The notes beneath the pieces are model-generated. The model did not search any database, was not told the origin of the DNA, and saw nothing but the letters and a program-made list of their open reading frames with translations. A DNA stretch of 64,000 nucleotides from Bacteroidaceae bacterium (GTDB taxonomy: Bacteria; Bacteroidota; Bacteroidia; Bacteroidales; Bacteroidaceae). Location of the stretch: positions 52,968 to 116,967 of the forward strand of contig JAFXVZ010000017.1 in NCBI GenBank assembly GCA_017534535.1, given 5' to 3'. The position numbers were made by a program, and so were the translations under genes. Below, in pieces: positions 54,423 to 59,786 of the stretch. The number at the start of each line of letters is the position of its first letter. The first letter of the stretch is position 1.

Positions 54423-54456
54423 AATCCCCGAGGCGAAAGCCTTGGGGATTTTTTTT
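54423..54456 (+). terminator. Terminator of the Gfo/Idh gene
   Basis: AATCCCCGAGGC (54423-54434), loop GAAA, GCCTTGGGGATT (54439-54450) and T6. One G-T wobble pair. The T-run merges with a downstream FNR-like box (54455-54468). Confidence 0.92.
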
Positions 54457-54606
54457 GACGTATACCAATTAGAACGGCAGTAATACTTAGTATTTTTACA
54501 GAAAGTAAATTGTGTGACTATGGCAAAGACTCTGATAAAGACATCTAAAAGCTATTTCAATCAAAAATTTCATAAAAAAGCTACATAGTTACACTTTTGG
54601 CATTAG
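54455..54606 (+). pseudogene. Decayed duplicate of the Crp-gene promoter and first codons
   Basis: The stretch parallels 55136-55225: an FNR-like box TTGACGTATACCAA (54455-54468), a -7 element TATTTTTA (54491-54498) and GTGTGACTATGGCAAAGACT against GTGTGACTATGGCAACGACT. After about eight codons (MAKTLIKTSK against MATTQSKTPL) similarity is lost and the frame stops after 22 codons. It is either a remnant of a gene duplication or a short leader peptide unit. Confidence 0.65.
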
Positions 54607-54935
54607 TACATTGTCTATTAGTGAATTATGTTAGTGTACCTTTTTAAAAAAGTTACACTTTTAAGGCGAAAATGGCATCTTCAGAAGGAAAACTTACGCA
54701 AGTGGCAGGGTTCAGATTATGATTCCCTCATCAAAAAGAAGTAATGTACAACCACCAAAACAAGTTGTTTTGGTGTCGTTATATTGCTTTCTGCAAGGTG
54801 TTAGATAGTATTCTCTCGTACCAAAACAAGTTGTTTTGCTACCAGTGTAAATTAGTGTAACTTCAGAGAGAAAGTACACTAACTTAAAAGCAATAAGTAT
54901 CAATCGATTAACAAGTATAGTGTAACTATCTAACT
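54607..54935. repeat. Repeat-rich intergenic stretch: TTAGTGTAACTT motifs and AAAACAAGTTGTTTT palindromes
   Basis: No gene is seen. AGTGTAAC or its complement occurs at about 54650, 54852 and 54918, with variants AGTGTACC (54633) and GTACACTA (54874), plus another copy just before the stretch at 54587. The palindrome CCAAAACAAGTTGTTTTG occurs at 54755-54772 and 54821-54838. The first copy has 10-bp arms (54753-54775). They may be operator or hairpin elements. Confidence 0.6.
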
Positions 54936-55140
54936 AAAGCAGAGGGATTCCAGTATGCCGAAGACTTCATCGCTGCTATGAAAAGAGCTTATCGGGAACT
55001 GAAAGGTGAAGAGAATCTGGAGGCTGCGGCAGCAAAACTTAATTCAGATAGAGAAGGAGTGAACAGGTTTATTCTACCAGCAGCACACCCCCCTCTCGGT
55101 TTCATCGTACTCTTCAGCCTTTATTTAATCTTTTTTTGAT
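54936..55140 (+). pseudogene. Possible gene remnant of unknown origin
   Basis: An open frame without a suitable start reads AEGFQYAEDFIAAMKRAYRE then LKGEENLEAAAAKLNSDREG before ending in a low-complexity hydrophobic tail. The helical, charge-balanced composition looks protein-coding. An internal ATG at 54979 would give about 50 residues. I do not recognise the family. Confidence 0.35.
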
Positions 55141-55179
55141 ATATATCAATTGGAACGCCAGTAAAACTTAGTATCTTTG
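55136..55179 (+). promoter_or_regulatory. FNR-type box and -7 element of the Crp-family gene
   Basis: TTGATATATATCAA (55136-55149) is a perfect TTGAT-N4-ATCAA box. TATCTTTG (55172-55179) is the -7 element. The box centre lies 36.5 bp from the last base of the -7, close to the -41.5 position used by class II activators. It precedes the regulator gene itself and suggests autoregulation. Confidence 0.8.
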
Positions 55180-55200
55180 TAGAAAGAAAATTGTGTGACT

Positions 55201-55794
55201 ATGGCAACGACTCAATCAAAGACACCCTTGGAGATAGCACGTGAGATGACGGAACGCTTCACGCATCTGGATGATGCTGACTTACAGTTATTGGCCAGCA
55301 TACTGGTACGCAAAGAAATGAAACGCGGAGAAATCATCATACCAGAGGGAGTGATAAGCCGTGACCATGTTTATATAGAGAAAGGATTGGTACGCCAGTA
55401 TTACTATAAGAACGGGCATGATGTGACTGAACATTTCTCTATCGAAGGAGATACGGTAATGAGCATCGAGAGCCTCTATTCCGGCGTCACCAACCATCTA
55501 TTGGCAGAGACACTGGAGCCCTGCATCTTATGGTATCACAACTACAAGAAGTTTATTGAACTAACGGAACGCTCTTTCGGCATTGCACGCTACTACCGCA
55601 TTTTCCAGGAAGACGACCTCATCATCACGCAGCACAAGGCAGACGCTTTCCGCTTTGAAAGTTCACGTGAACGCTATGAACGCTTCGTAAAGGAATATCC
55701 CGAAGTCGCCAAGCGTGCCCCTCTGCAGCACATCGCCTCTTACCTGCTGATGACTCCCGAAACTCTGAGCCGCATCAGGGCAGGGGTTAAATAA
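55201..55794 (+). CDS. Crp/Fnr-family transcriptional regulator with FNR-type recognition helix
   Basis: A 197-residue regulator. The ATG at 55201 is preferred to 55195. Residues ~15-130 form the cNMP-binding beta-roll (EMKRGEIIIPEGVISRDHVYIEKGLVRQYYYKNGHDVTEHF), the long dimerisation helix follows, and a short winged-helix part ends the protein. The recognition helix TPETLSRIR has Glu187, Ser190 and Arg191, the E--SR pattern that reads TTGAT in FNR. Only one cysteine is present, so there is no FNR-type iron-sulfur cluster; the ligand is unknown. Boxes of the matching sequence lie in its own promoter and in the promoters at 57354-57521. It converges on the VOC gene. Confidence 0.9.
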   Translation: MATTQSKTPLEIAREMTERFTHLDDADLQLLASILVRKEMKRGEIIIPEGVISRDHVYIEKGLVRQYYYKNGHDVTEHFSIEGDTVMSIESLYSGVTNHLLAETLEPCILWYHNYKKFIELTERSFGIARYYRIFQEDDLIITQHKADAFRFESSRERYERFVKEYPEVAKRAPLQHIASYLLMTPETLSRIRAGVK

Positions 55795-55808
55795 AAGTAT
55801 AATAATCC

Positions 55809-56198
55809 CTATTCCGTTATCTCTATTAGAATACCCTCAGGCCCCACAATGCAGCTCTCATAATAGCCATCTCCCGTAGTTCGTGGTCCGCTGAGCAGTT
55901 GATATCTTGCTTTCACCAACAGGGCAGTAAGGTTATCTACACGTTCTTTGCTGCCCACCGACATTGAAACATGGATATAACCCAGATGCAGAGACTCATC
56001 AACCCTACCCTCCTGCACATCAGGGCGATTCATCATTTCCAGTCGGGTTTCACCATCTGGAAATGAGAGGATATAAGTCCTCAGCCCCGTCCTAGGATTG
56101 TGATATAAGTCGTTAGATTGGGCAGCAAAGAAGTGCATGAAGAAACTCCTCATGCCCTCCAAGTCTTTGCAATACAATGCTATGTGGTCTATCTTCAT
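55809..56198 (-). CDS. VOC-family (glyoxalase/bleomycin-resistance-like) protein
   Basis: A 129-residue small metalloenzyme-like protein with the two beta-alpha-beta-beta-beta modules of the vicinal-oxygen-chelate fold: MKIDHIALYCKDLEGMRSFFMHFF with the first metal His, GLRTYILSFPDGETRLEMM, LGYIHVSMSVGSKERVDNL and the closing CIVGPEGILIEITE with the last Glu ligand. The reaction is not predictable. It lies six bases downstream of the nitroreductase gene and is probably cotranscribed with it. Confidence 0.88.
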   Translation of the reverse strand: MKIDHIALYCKDLEGMRSFFMHFFAAQSNDLYHNPRTGLRTYILSFPDGETRLEMMNRPDVQEGRVDESLHLGYIHVSMSVGSKERVDNLTALLVKARYQLLSGPRTTGDGYYESCIVGPEGILIEITE

Positions 56199-56204
56199 TC
56201 TCTA

Positions 56205-56741
56205 TTAATAGAATTTCGCCACTTCCTCTACCGCTTTGCGTTTAGGTCTCACCCCATCCTTACTTCTATGGCCTACCATAATGATAGACACAATAATCTC
56301 ATCTTCAGGAATCTCTAGCAAAGCCCTCACTTTATCGGCATCACGAAGCCCCGTCACAATGGTATCAAGTCCCATCTCAGTAGCCTTCAGCAGGAAATAT
56401 GCCCCCTGGAGTCCCAGGTCATAGCTGCCCCAAACATCGCCCAGGTCGTTTACAGGCTCACCCTTTTTAAAGCCAGAGCGACCCTTTACAAAGGTCGTGA
56501 CCACCATCGCACCTGCCCCTTTCGATACCATTGCGTTTTGAGGAGCCACACACTCCCTCAGTTTGGTTTTCATCTCTTCAGACATCACCACATGATAACG
56601 GCTTGTCTGGGCATTATCCCAAGAGGGAGCTTCCAAAGCTGTAGCGATAACAGACTCAAGTTCTTCTTTCAAAAGAGGTTTTGTCTCATCATAAGAACGA
56701 ATGCTCCTACGTCTTGCAACAATCTCATCAAATGTATTCAT
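56205..56741 (-). CDS. Nitroreductase-family flavoprotein
   Basis: A 178-residue FMN-dependent oxidoreductase: FDEIVARRRSIRSYDETKPL at the N terminus (the RRSxRxF motif binding FMN phosphate), ALEAPSWDNAQTSRYHVV, then LGLQGAYFLLKATEMGLDTIVTGLRDADKVRALLEIPEDEIIVSIIMVGH. The family reduces nitroaromatics, quinones or flavins with NAD(P)H. A possible -7 element TACATTTG on the minus strand (56776-56769) lies upstream. The next gene upstream is another flavoprotein, so the group may deal with nitro compounds or redox stress; this is inference. Confidence 0.9.
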   Translation of the reverse strand: MNTFDEIVARRRSIRSYDETKPLLKEELESVIATALEAPSWDNAQTSRYHVVMSEEMKTKLRECVAPQNAMVSKGAGAMVVTTFVKGRSGFKKGEPVNDLGDVWGSYDLGLQGAYFLLKATEMGLDTIVTGLRDADKVRALLEIPEDEIIVSIIMVGHRSKDGVRPKRKAVEEVAKFY

Positions 56742-56847
56742 AATCTAAACTGGTTTTTATTGTTACGCAAATGTAATAAATACTACGATAAAAAGCAAAG
56801 AAAGTAACATTATTTCACATTTGTATGATAACCTAACTACATACTTT

Positions 56848-57330
56848 TTATATCACCTTACACTTTCCACTGAACTCAGACAGTACAATCTTGATAACCT
56901 CTACTCGCTGCAAAGCATTACTGATGTATTTCAGCCCATTGCTCATGTTTTCTGGAGCCAGCTTCTCTAACAAAAGCTTCAATGCCTTGCGTTTCTCCTC
57001 ATCATTCATGCCAATGGAAGCAATTCCTTTCAGCACTACGCTCTCCCTTTCCGAAGAGAACTGTTGGGGGAGCAGATGAACCTTACCCACCACACAAAAC
57101 GACACGCAGGGATTCATTTGGATAGCACGAATCTTCCTGCCCTCATGGGCACAATGTATATAGAGGCTATCCTGTCCATCCCATACGTAATTAATGGGAA
57201 TGCCGTATGGTTCACCATTATCTGCAATCATAGAAAGGTAGCCATATTCACAAGTGGCAAGTATCTCCCTTGCCCTCGCCTCGTCCATCACGCGGTCTTG
57301 CCTGCGTATATCTGCCGTAACATATTTCAT
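56848..57330 (-). CDS. Pyridoxamine-5'-phosphate-oxidase-like flavoprotein (NimA-like)
   Basis: A 160-residue split-barrel flavin-binding protein. CEYGYLSMIADNGEPYGIPINYVWDGQDSLYIHCAHEGRKIRAIQMNPCVSFCVVGK is the pattern of the NimA-like branch of the PNPOx superfamily, some of whose members reduce 5-nitroimidazoles. Whether this one does so cannot be told from sequence. The gene is divergent from the outer-membrane receptor at 57543, and the shared intergenic region carries two FNR-type boxes, one at the expected place for each gene. Confidence 0.87.
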   Translation of the reverse strand: MKYVTADIRRQDRVMDEARAREILATCEYGYLSMIADNGEPYGIPINYVWDGQDSLYIHCAHEGRKIRAIQMNPCVSFCVVGKVHLLPQQFSSERESVVLKGIASIGMNDEEKRKALKLLLEKLAPENMSNGLKYISNALQRVEVIKIVLSEFSGKCKVI

Positions 57331-57353
57331 ACTGTTTCAAATTAAATCCCATA

Positions 57354-57397
57354 CAAAGGAAATGTTTTTCACTGGTCACACAATTGACGTATGTCAA
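57354..57397 (-). promoter_or_regulatory. FNR-type box and -7 element of the PNPOx-like gene
   Basis: The symmetric box TTGACGTATGTCAA lies at 57384-57397. On the minus strand TTCCTTTG (57361-57354) is a -7-like element with one mismatch. The spacing from box centre to the last -7 base is 36.5 bp, the same as at the Crp-family gene. Confidence 0.7.
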
Positions 57398-57477
57398 GAA
57401 ATGCCTCTATTATCTGGAGCAATATGGCGATTATGGCAATCAGTCAGTTCAGGGTTTCGCACTGAACTATACTTTTT

Positions 57478-57521
57478 TTGACTTATATCAATTGATGCGA
57501 CAAGAAAATAATATATCTTTG
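57478..57521 (+). promoter_or_regulatory. FNR-type box and -7 element of the outer-membrane receptor gene
   Basis: TTGACTTATATCAA (57478-57491) and TATCTTTG (57514-57521), again with 36.5 bp between box centre and the last -7 base. The flanks TTTTTT before, CAATTG overlapping the box end and GTAGAAAG after the -7 are shared with the Crp-gene promoter. Confidence 0.8.
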
Positions 57522-57542: not shown

Positions 57543-59786
57543 ATGAAAACCAGACTGATCCTATCTTGCCTGATGGTTTGCAGCCTCTCACTAGGTGCAA
57601 TGGCTCAGGAGACCGCCGTGAAGGATTCCGTGCCCCAGACAAAGGAAGAGCGTAACCGCAACGTGATGCTGAACGCATCGAGTGACAACCAGCCCCGACA
57701 AATCTCTATTGGGCTTCCTGATGGTGAGGCAGTGGATATCTTTGAGGATGGCACCCCCGTGAGCTATCTCTTTTGGCCCGACTACCCTTATTATTCATGG
57801 CGAGGAGGCGCGAGCACGGCTTCGCAGAGCCTTATGTCACTTAGTGAAAGTGCGCTGCAATATGGCAAGTGTAGCTATGTGCTCAACTCTTCAACAGTGA
57901 AAGCTGGCGATCAGTTTCAAGGTTTGGTGAACTACACTACTAACATTTTCCGCAAACAAGTGGCTGACATCAATGTATCAGGTCCTATTGCCAAAGGATG
58001 GGGCTACATGGCTGGTGCTTACATCGGTTTCGACCCAGGCAGTAACCGCTTAGATGCCTTGGACCCCCAAGACCAGATGCAGATATATAAAATAGGTATA
58101 AACAATCGGTTTGCAAACGGCAAAGGCGAGATGAGCCTGCAATACAAATACGCCAACTATGTGTCAATGCCTGACAACTATGGTCTGTTCTACTATAATG
58201 GCAAGGATGGCAGCGTGGATGAATTGGAGGATTTCAACTTAGGCAGAGACCAACTGCTGGCCAACTACCAATATATCAACTACATTGATGTAAGAGACGG
58301 GCAACGTGTACGCCGTACCATGAGGCGTGCCAATACAGTCGAGAATCATCAGATTACCTTCACCTTGGGCTACAATATAAATGACAACATGAAGCTTGAC
58401 ATCAGCAGCAAGTTGAAGTTCGCTGACATGAATAAGGTGATGATGAAGTTGGGTGGTATTTTCACGGCTCAAGCTGATGATGGTTATACTTATACTACTG
58501 GCAGCCCCTATACCGGTACTATCCAAAACCGCTACATGCTCTACTTCGAGGGGTTCGAGAAGAGTTGGATGACTACGGCACAACTTACTGGCAAGACTGA
58601 CAACCATAGTTGGCGATTGGCTCTTAACGAGTGGTACAACCGTGCTGGCATCTATACCGCTACAGGACTTTATGCCCATGAAGCAAAGGCATCACCTTCT
58701 CGCTTACTGAAAGATGGCGAAGAAGGCTCGTCATACAATGATGGTAGTGAGTACTACAATGGCCATGAAAACCGCCTGGCTCTGATTGCTTCTGACGACT
58801 GGACTATCAACAAGAACCTATGGGTATCGGCAGGTGTACGTCTGGAATGGATGACACAAGGTGGCAGGGCTGCTTTAGCATTTACAGACGATGGTCAGGT
58901 AATAGAGCCCAAGAACGACCGCACCTATATGTATAACCTGAAAGATGGTGTGAAGAACCGCTTTGGAGAATATAGCTGGTTCAACCCGTCGGCTACCTTC
59001 AACTTCCGCTATACTATTGCCAACGGCTTCGGATTGGTAGGCGAATATGTGTATGTGAAGCAACGTCCTAACCTGCAAGACTATGCCGGGCCATATATGC
59101 CGTTGATGGATCCCATCAACGTACACATGGCAAAGGGAGGTATCTACTGGAACAATGCCTGGATGCAGCTAACCTCACAAATCAGCTACATCAACCAGAC
59201 CAACTATAAGTTCCGAGAGCAGTTTACCAACCCTAACGACCAGAGCGAGACGGTGGTACTGCCTATCGTGAACGATGTGGCAACACTCGGATGGACCACC
59301 GATGCTGTGTTTACTCCTTTCAAGGGTTTCACCTTCCACGGTTTGCTGACCCTGCAGAACCCAAAGTACAAGAACTTCACTTTCCAGCCTGTGTTCAGTG
59401 ATGGTCCAGGACAGCTCTATAACTTCAATGATAAGAACGTGATTGCGATGTCTAAGCTCATCATGGAGCTGGATCCTTCCTACCAATGGGACAAGTGGCG
59501 CGTGTGGCTGAGCTTCCGCTACCAGAGCAAGCAATATATCAACCGCACGAACACGCTCTATTTCAAGGGTCGTTGGGAGACTTTCGGTGGCATCGACTAT
59601 GAGGTGAACAAACGCCTGTCACTCTCACTGAATGTCATCAACATCCTGAACCAGAAGGGTGCCAGTGGTAATATCCCTGCTGCCGATCTGGCCACAGACG
59701 TGAGTGCCTACCAGCAGCATTACCTGATGTCGGGTACCTACATCCGCCCGTTCACCATGGAAATGACAGCTTCGCTAAAGTTCTAA
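57543..59786 (+). CDS. TonB-dependent-receptor-type outer-membrane protein
   Basis: A 747-residue protein with signal peptide MKTRLILSCLMVCSLSLGAMAQ. It lacks the carboxypeptidase-like domain. Residues ~40-150 look like a plug (RQISIGLPDGEAVDIFEDGTPVSYLFWPDYPYYSWRGGASTASQSLMSLSE), and the rest is a barrel (LSLQYKYANY-like strands, FNFRYTIANGFGLVGEYVYVKQRP, closing strand RPFTMEMTASLKF). The substrate is unknown; no SusD, siderophore or B12 gene is adjacent. It is under a FNR-type box and divergent from the NimA-like gene, and it ends one base before the convergent permease gene ends. Confidence 0.85.
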   Translation: MKTRLILSCLMVCSLSLGAMAQETAVKDSVPQTKEERNRNVMLNASSDNQPRQISIGLPDGEAVDIFEDGTPVSYLFWPDYPYYSWRGGASTASQSLMSLSESALQYGKCSYVLNSSTVKAGDQFQGLVNYTTNIFRKQVADINVSGPIAKGWGYMAGAYIGFDPGSNRLDALDPQDQMQIYKIGINNRFANGKGEMSLQYKYANYVSMPDNYGLFYYNGKDGSVDELEDFNLGRDQLLANYQYINYIDVRDGQRVRRTMRRANTVENHQITFTLGYNINDNMKLDISSKLKFADMNKVMMKLGGIFTAQADDGYTYTTGSPYTGTIQNRYMLYFEGFEKSWMTTAQLTGKTDNHSWRLALNEWYNRAGIYTATGLYAHEAKASPSRLLKDGEEGSSYNDGSEYYNGHENRLALIASDDWTINKNLWVSAGVRLEWMTQGGRAALAFTDDGQVIEPKNDRTYMYNLKDGVKNRFGEYSWFNPSATFNFRYTIANGFGLVGEYVYVKQRPNLQDYAGPYMPLMDPINVHMAKGGIYWNNAWMQLTSQISYINQTNYKFREQFTNPNDQSETVVLPIVNDVATLGWTTDAVFTPFKGFTFHGLLTLQNPKYKNFTFQPVFSDGPGQLYNFNDKNVIAMSKLIMELDPSYQWDKWRVWLSFRYQSKQYINRTNTLYFKGRWETFGGIDYEVNKRLSLSLNVINILNQKGASGNIPAADLATDVSAYQQHYLMSGTYIRPFTMEMTASLKF

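Follow-up and report, generated by a model that had tools for sequence, protein, structure and literature searches.

Escherichia coli FNR activates class II promoters from a position centered at -41.5, and CRP regulators of the cAMP type carry a phosphate-binding cassette that reads Arg-Ser/Thr-Ala. Here, we describe a locus of a Bacteroidaceae bacterium that is very probably the local regulon of a Crp/Fnr-family class II activator without an iron-sulfur cluster. It lies in a stretch of 64,000 nucleotides (the window; assembly GCA_017534535.1, contig JAFXVZ010000017.1, positions 52,968 to 116,967) that belongs to a 2.7-Mb genome bin (G000), 89% complete. Unlike FNR, the window regulator has no cluster cysteines (there is a single Cys), and it appears to be local instead of global, acting on promoters of the sigma-ABfr type.

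Among the regulators of this family described in Bacteroidota, HcpR and HcpR2 of Bacteroides and Porphyromonas are similar in that they have no FNR cysteine motif and few local targets (passages of PMC1274295 and PMC13370916, the latter dealing with HcpR and RNA; see also PMC12750200). However, HcpR2 has the motif GTAACnnnnGTTAC and targets hcp (passages of PMC1274295), whereas the boxes found here read TTGAY-N4-RTCAA and not GTAAC-N4-GTTAC. BT4338, the global sugar regulator of Bacteroides thetaiotaomicron, is also a member of the Crp family with predicted autoregulation, but its motif is wwwTATGTTnTAnAACATAwww and it has up to 30 carbohydrate genes as targets (passages of PMC3878776). PgRsp and CrpPg of Porphyromonas gingivalis are Crp/Fnr regulators as well, the former autoregulated; they differ in that PgRsp binds heme and CrpPg is described as binding DNA without a ligand, and the passages of PMC6955866 and PMC12040651 that deal with them describe no box position. 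A literature search, with subscription papers mostly beyond reach, found no paper placing Crp/Fnr sites relative to TAnnTTTG, the -7 element of sigma-ABfr promoters.

Boxes and their distance to the -7 element

The regulator gene (crp in what follows) is preceded by the FNR-type box TTGATATATATCAA (55136..55149, + strand) and the -7 element TATCTTTG (55172..55179, +). The same -7 element, at 57514..57521 (+), follows the box TTGACTTATATCAA (57478..57491, +) upstream of a gene coding for a TonB-dependent-receptor-like protein. On the other strand, a Nim-like gene has the box TTGACATACGTCAA (57384..57397, -) and the -7-like element TTCCTTTG (57354..57361, -), one base off TAnnTTTG, and a decayed box, TTGACGTATACCAA (54455..54468, +), is accompanied by the -7-like TATTTTTA at 54491-54498. 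In all four, there are 30 nucleotides (nt) from the box end to the last -7 base, i.e., 36.5 bp from the box center. The crp and receptor copies are perfect matches to TTGAY-N4-RTCAA-N22-TANNTTTG; that of Nim departs from it at one base and the decayed one at two, one in the box and one in the -7 element. It should be noted that positions 54450-54543 duplicate the crp promoter and gene start (55131-55224), 84% alike over 94 nt, and the decayed box, as part of this duplication, is not independent evidence. The crp and receptor promoters are in turn 77% alike over 61 nt, which leaves two independent cases in the window, crp/receptor and Nim. The closest spacer to that of crp, besides its own decayed copy, is the receptor spacer of a relative, G006 (16/22 bases, versus 8/22 for the G006 crp spacer), and we infer that promoters with a box underwent a tandem duplication or exchanged DNA unequally.

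In Flavobacterium psychrophilum, the TAnnTTTG element covers -12 to -5 (passages of PMC9723704), and Bacteroides promoters are cited as having TAnnTTTG at -7 and TTTG at -33 (passages of PMC7366714). Given the 36.5 bp to the -7 end, this start-site frame, taken from F. psychrophilum, places the box center at ca. -41.5, the class II position. The exact pattern was found 57 times, in 34 genomes, across 60 genomes of the genus, and never in the reversed control. Searching the same genomes with a variable gap gave 162 matches versus 16 for the reversed pattern; among the matches listed (150/162), 52 were at 30 nt, 13 at 31 nt, 32 at 16-18 nt, and 7 at 13 nt, with 0-5 at each distance elsewhere. 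Over 148 phylum-wide genomes, the share of the 30-nt distance among the matches listed outside the window's genome was 21/80 within the same class and 9/67 in other classes. No conserved spacer was present among 48 non-redundant 30-nt sites. Class II geometry is supported by these distributions as a predicted genus-wide and wider pattern.

Within the bin, the search at exact spacing gave two perfect matches (crp and receptor) and one with a single mismatch (Nim), all in 2.4 kb of the window. Allowing two mismatches, there were 10 matches, the decayed copy among them, and up to three, 155 in total versus 83 for the reversed control, so such matches are mostly background. Runs of repeats of the TTGACAATTGACAATTG type, scattered in the bin (contigs C19, C20, C24, and others), yield chance half-sites. 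The original prediction for this DNA, made from its sequence, had claimed four boxes at an identical distance that fits class II activation and had proposed a genome-wide search as a check. The distance and the class II fit hold, the latter with the genus peak at 30 nt in its favor, and the three best matches of the bin are indeed all at this locus; the four boxes are where they were said to be, but three at most can be counted, the fourth being a decayed duplicate and the crp and receptor promoters being related.

Genomic link and recognition helix

Around 80 named regulator loci, we found 54 box/-7 pairs within 3 kb (490 kb in all) versus 1 further out (881 kb). By distance, 24 of the 54 pairs are at 30 nt, 2 at 31, 22 at 16-19, and 6 at 26-28. 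As for the 57 exact genus sites, a Crp-family gene lies within ca. 3 kb of 34, and one more, that of the G006 receptor, has it at 4.5 kb; 14 of the 57 belong to known regulator loci (13 within 3 kb), and among the remaining 43, a Crp-family open reading frame (ORF) was found within ca. 3 kb of 21. None of 37 control regions with off-peak sites, i.e., at any listed distance except 16-19, 30, and 31 nt, contained a Crp-family gene, some of the fetched regions being shortened by contig ends. These regions hold 38 of the 51 off-peak sites, and the 13 omitted divide as follows: 10 are second readings that share the box of a site beside a Crp-family gene, 2 share the box of a 31-nt site, and 1 was left unexamined. 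Counting conservatively, with those 10 held against the claim, the comparison becomes 34/57 versus 10/48, with a p value of 5e-5 that ignores kinship (p values treat related genomes as independent and are therefore too small). Two control regions (L256 and L258) also contain a 31-nt reading and no Crp gene; among the 31-nt sites (13 in all), those of G000, G038, and G057 are beside a Crp-family gene and those of L256 and L258 are not. Of the 53 genomes in which a regulator homologue was detected, 34 have an exact site, compared with none of the 7 others, 5 of which are <90% complete.

The predicted structure of the window regulator (predicted local distance difference test score, 94) has the Crp/Fnr fold, with a beta-roll domain, a dimerisation helix, and a C-terminal winged helix-turn-helix. 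Its Pfam match to the cyclic nucleotide (cNMP)-binding domain is below the cutoff, and the closest solved relative in sequence is 3dn7 (E value, 1.7e-15), a Crp-like protein of Cytophaga hutchinsonii. The expected Glu-xx-Ser-Arg pattern is found in the recognition helix, TPETLSR, in which Glu187, Ser190, and Arg191 are invariant in 39 sequences; by analogy, the Glu and the Arg would contact the half-site. The absence of cluster cysteines had been predicted too: the protein has only C108 where FNR has four Cys for its [4Fe-4S] cluster, so an FNR cluster is not present. At the place of the cAMP cassette, the consensus of the 39 sequences reads EPTxLMxEALE, with no R-S/T-A. The effector is predicted to be neither an iron-sulfur cluster, given the single Cys, nor cAMP bound by the classical cassette.

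Boxes of the TTGAT-N4-ATCAA type are present, and in one locus the box changes together with the helix. This is the case of G123, which has an orthologue of the receptor (ca. 75% identity) beside a regulator at 50% whose best match in 399 sampled family genomes is that of the window. Exactly 30 nt from the -7 end of the G123 receptor promoter is a GTGA-type box, GTGACATATATCAC, and the helix of the G123 regulator, TRESLSR, has Arg before the Glu where the window has Pro. This Pro is invariant in the named set (80 sequences, from 79 loci plus the window, L174 having been dropped by a length filter) and is found in 30 of the 31 of a second regulator set, which includes the window's own (the two sets may overlap). 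Rodionov and others showed that R180 is paired with G3 of the site, and Ser or Pro at that residue with the TTGAC form (passages of PMC1274295); the co-change in G123 is a putative new instance of this known code, at an orthologous promoter. The 31st regulator, with helix SRRQLHR (G143), adjoins a second GTGA-type site at 30 nt (there are no more in 158 genomes), a case picked out post hoc. In the same 158 genomes, the distances of GTGAY-N4-RTCAC do not peak at 30 nt (2 of 46 sites, with 3 at 31 and 7 at 26), which leaves G123 as the basis of the helix/box co-change. Five of the sites at 26 nt, with a GTGAT-N4-GTCAC box and each in a different genome (G062:C7:309732, G066:C1:4828052, G067:C27:44875, G012:C23:805604, and G157:C1:1490332), look like one conserved promoter.

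Gene content, candidate targets, and possible autoregulation

The order in the window is a GFO/IDH/MocA oxidoreductase, the decayed box, crp (+), the VOC, nitroreductase, and Nim-like PPOX genes (-), and the receptor (+). Among named records, the regulator locus has its nearest kin in two Bacteroidaceae bins, one from goat reticulum (L100) and the other from roe deer rumen (L101). The regulator (55201..55794, +) has 197 amino acids from the ATG at 55201, a GTG two codons upstream being also possible. The putative target downstream of the receptor box (57543..59786, +) codes for a TonB-dependent-receptor-like outer-membrane protein of 747 amino acids whose match to PF00593 (E value, 2.9e-5) is just under the Pfam cutoff, while a relative in L067 is above it. 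The PPOX flavoprotein (56848..57330, -) is Nim-like, but with 82.6 bits for NimABCDEF versus the NCBIfam equivalog cutoff of 260, it is a PPOX relative and not a member of NimA-J. On the same strand, the nitroreductase-family gene (56205..56741, -; PF00881) is separated from it by 106 nt and from the VOC/glyoxalase-fold gene (55809..56198, -; PF00903) by 6 nt; the three genes probably form one operon, with VOC last. Two remnants derive from one secreted-protein gene, full length in G006 and in another relative, G028, and their order is swapped in the window. One corresponds to the C terminus (amino acids 205-232; 54957..55040, +; tblastn E value, 6e-8) and the other to the middle (amino acids 160-191; 57375..57470, +; tblastn E value, 5e-10). 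The first part of the latter aligns poorly and overlaps the Nim box, which occupies the position of the PHP-gene box in G006 and G028, divergent from the secreted-protein gene or its remnant.

In G006, four promoters have a 30-nt box: those of crp and the receptor and, each with one mismatch in the -7 element, those of the secreted-protein gene and of the PHP-like gene, which is internally deleted. G028 has the same arrangement at all of these except crp; there, the PHP-like gene overlaps a VOC gene. No Pfam family was found for the secreted and PHP-like proteins, which have only weak sub-cutoff matches in NCBIfam, and the PHP label is based on such matches and on a DLHVH motif that we take to be of the PHP type. 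In G026 (L272, 9439-10000), the regulator module is gone between the oxidoreductase and the receptor, and short reading frames remain. Paralogues of the receptor (55 to 60% identity) with PHP-like neighbors on the opposite strand are found at other loci (G000:C32, G006:C77, G092:C4, G101:C12, and others). At 11 of these, the stretch fetched contained no Crp gene, and none (0/11) had a box at 30 or 31 nt when up to one mismatch was allowed. The receptor and PHP-like proteins may work together.

The regulator had been proposed to activate itself, a flavoprotein, and an outer-membrane importer in response to a signal such as nitrosative or redox stress. The importer is supported as a candidate target by the receptor boxes of G006 and G028. 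The flavoprotein has its box in the window, with one -7 mismatch, but the Nim homologue of G006 has no such box at this spacing; Nim was rejected as a conserved target since it is not common to the relatives, in which the receptor, VOC, and PHP-like genes recur. Self-activation is compatible with the own box in an activating position in the window and in G006, but G028 has none, and autoregulation was rejected as a conserved trait; besides, in wider kin the own box is often in a repressor-like position. The stress signal found no support: a scan of six ORFs around the boxes turned up no hcp gene, and nothing else points to it. Lastly, the co-occurrence of regulator and box, proposed as a check, is borne out by the 34 of 57 exact sites near a Crp-family gene, but G026 keeps the receptor box with no adjacent regulator.

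At the own promoters of the 80 named loci, the box lies at 16-19 nt in 22 (center at ca. -27 to -31, a repressor-like position) and at 30 nt in 1, and 57 have none of strict form. The former position suggests autorepression in these wider kin. In L071, L072, and L073, from genomes of the genus, a widespread regulator homologue (ca. 50% identity) with its own box at 16-19 nt adjoins a MATE pump gene that has a 30-nt box, so the geometries of activation and autorepression are side by side. Elsewhere, the putative targets of 30- and 31-nt sites include MATE pumps (23 entries), YiiX-like proteins (9), SDR enzymes (8), and VOC proteins (2), as well as two PHP-like genes in Alistipes bins, some loci being counted twice and 16 sites having no assigned ORF. 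For one member per target group, MatE, short-chain dehydrogenase, and glyoxalase were above the Pfam cutoffs, and the YiiX-like protein scored 25.7 versus 27. The set formed by the outer-membrane importer, the PHP-like and VOC proteins, and, in the window, the nitroreductase and Nim-like flavoproteins leads us to guess at the import and conversion of some small molecule.

Proposed class II activation and its alternatives

We computed the box, its spacing, the genomic link to regulators, and the helix/box co-change in one locus, and on these we base the following mechanism. The regulator dimer, in its active form, would bind TTGAY-N4-RTCAA centered at ca. -41.5, its P-E-T-L-S-R helix reading the TTGA half-sites. 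From that position it would overlap the -33 region, and it would activate sigma-ABfr promoters in the class II manner, by contact with RNA polymerase. It would turn on the receptor gene and the Nim-nitroreductase-VOC operon, as well as its own gene in this lineage, which would amount to positive feedback. An effector probably binds in the beta-roll pocket, which would make the protein a ligand- or state-dependent activator.

Besides the sites omitted from the off-peak control, several observations weigh against a local regulon of this kind. The crp and receptor promoters share ancestry, so the spacing that they have in common in the window is in part inherited; for 22 of the 57 exact genus sites, no Crp gene was found nearby; the regulator promoter of G028 has no box; and the G057 receptor (ca. 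75% identity) has neither regulator nor box. The G026 receptor (96%) keeps a box without a regulator beside it, at 31 nt, its spacer having one extra base. Finally, a second Crp paralogue in G000 has a TTGAC-N4-GTCAA box at 31 nt alongside; here (G000:C5:14385-14927, L068), the Crp-family gene is followed by the box TTGACATAGGTCAA, 31 nt from the -7 element, and by an alkaline-phosphatase gene (PF00245), and another regulator could therefore use these boxes. The C5 and G026 cases, together with the fact that the same box type adjoins diverse regulators with an ETLSR helix, are what would be expected if the sites were truly of class II but served different or several Crp/Fnr paralogues, the local gene being just one user. 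We find such cross-talk unlikely, as CAATT continues all 11 boxes of the window, G006, and G028 but not those of C5 (CAATG) or G026 (CAAGT), and the co-change in G123 connects the local regulator with its receptor promoter.

Could the regulator instead be a repressor, or act in both ways, with boxes that block transcription? A dimer bound at ca. -27 to -31, as in the 22 named loci above, would block RNA polymerase. However, the boxes of the window are all at the -41.5 position, the 30-nt distance is the main peak of the genus, and a strict box 16-19 nt from TAnnTTTG is absent from the whole bin, which makes repression here quite improbable. That the equal spacing is a mere trace of recent promoter duplication, devoid of function, would be in line with the similarity among the decayed, crp, and receptor promoters and with the remnants of one secreted-protein gene on both sides. 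Yet, outside the group that these promoters form in the window and G006, spacers have only 4-12 of 22 bases in common and still keep the equal spacing, and the distance spectra of genus and class also argue against a duplication trace, so we give it hardly any credit.

The reading that we prefer for the window, a local class II activator, may be part of something wider. With rather modest confidence, we lean toward one positional code for Crp/Fnr regulators across the class Bacteroidia, in which sites at -41.5/-42.5 would activate sigma-ABfr promoters, sites at ca. -27 to -31 would repress them (often the promoter from which the regulator itself is transcribed), and whether Pro or Arg precedes the recognition Glu would decide between TTGA and GTGA half-sites. 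The housekeeping promoter of Bacteroidota is unusual, and the peak at -41.5, found in 60 genomes of the genus and again in further genera of the class, suggests that it can be activated in the class II manner. So sharp a peak may provide a simple rule of target prediction for many unstudied regulators of gut and rumen microbes, and, if the code is true, both the targets and the sign of regulation of many uncharacterised regulators would be readable from the type of box and its distance.

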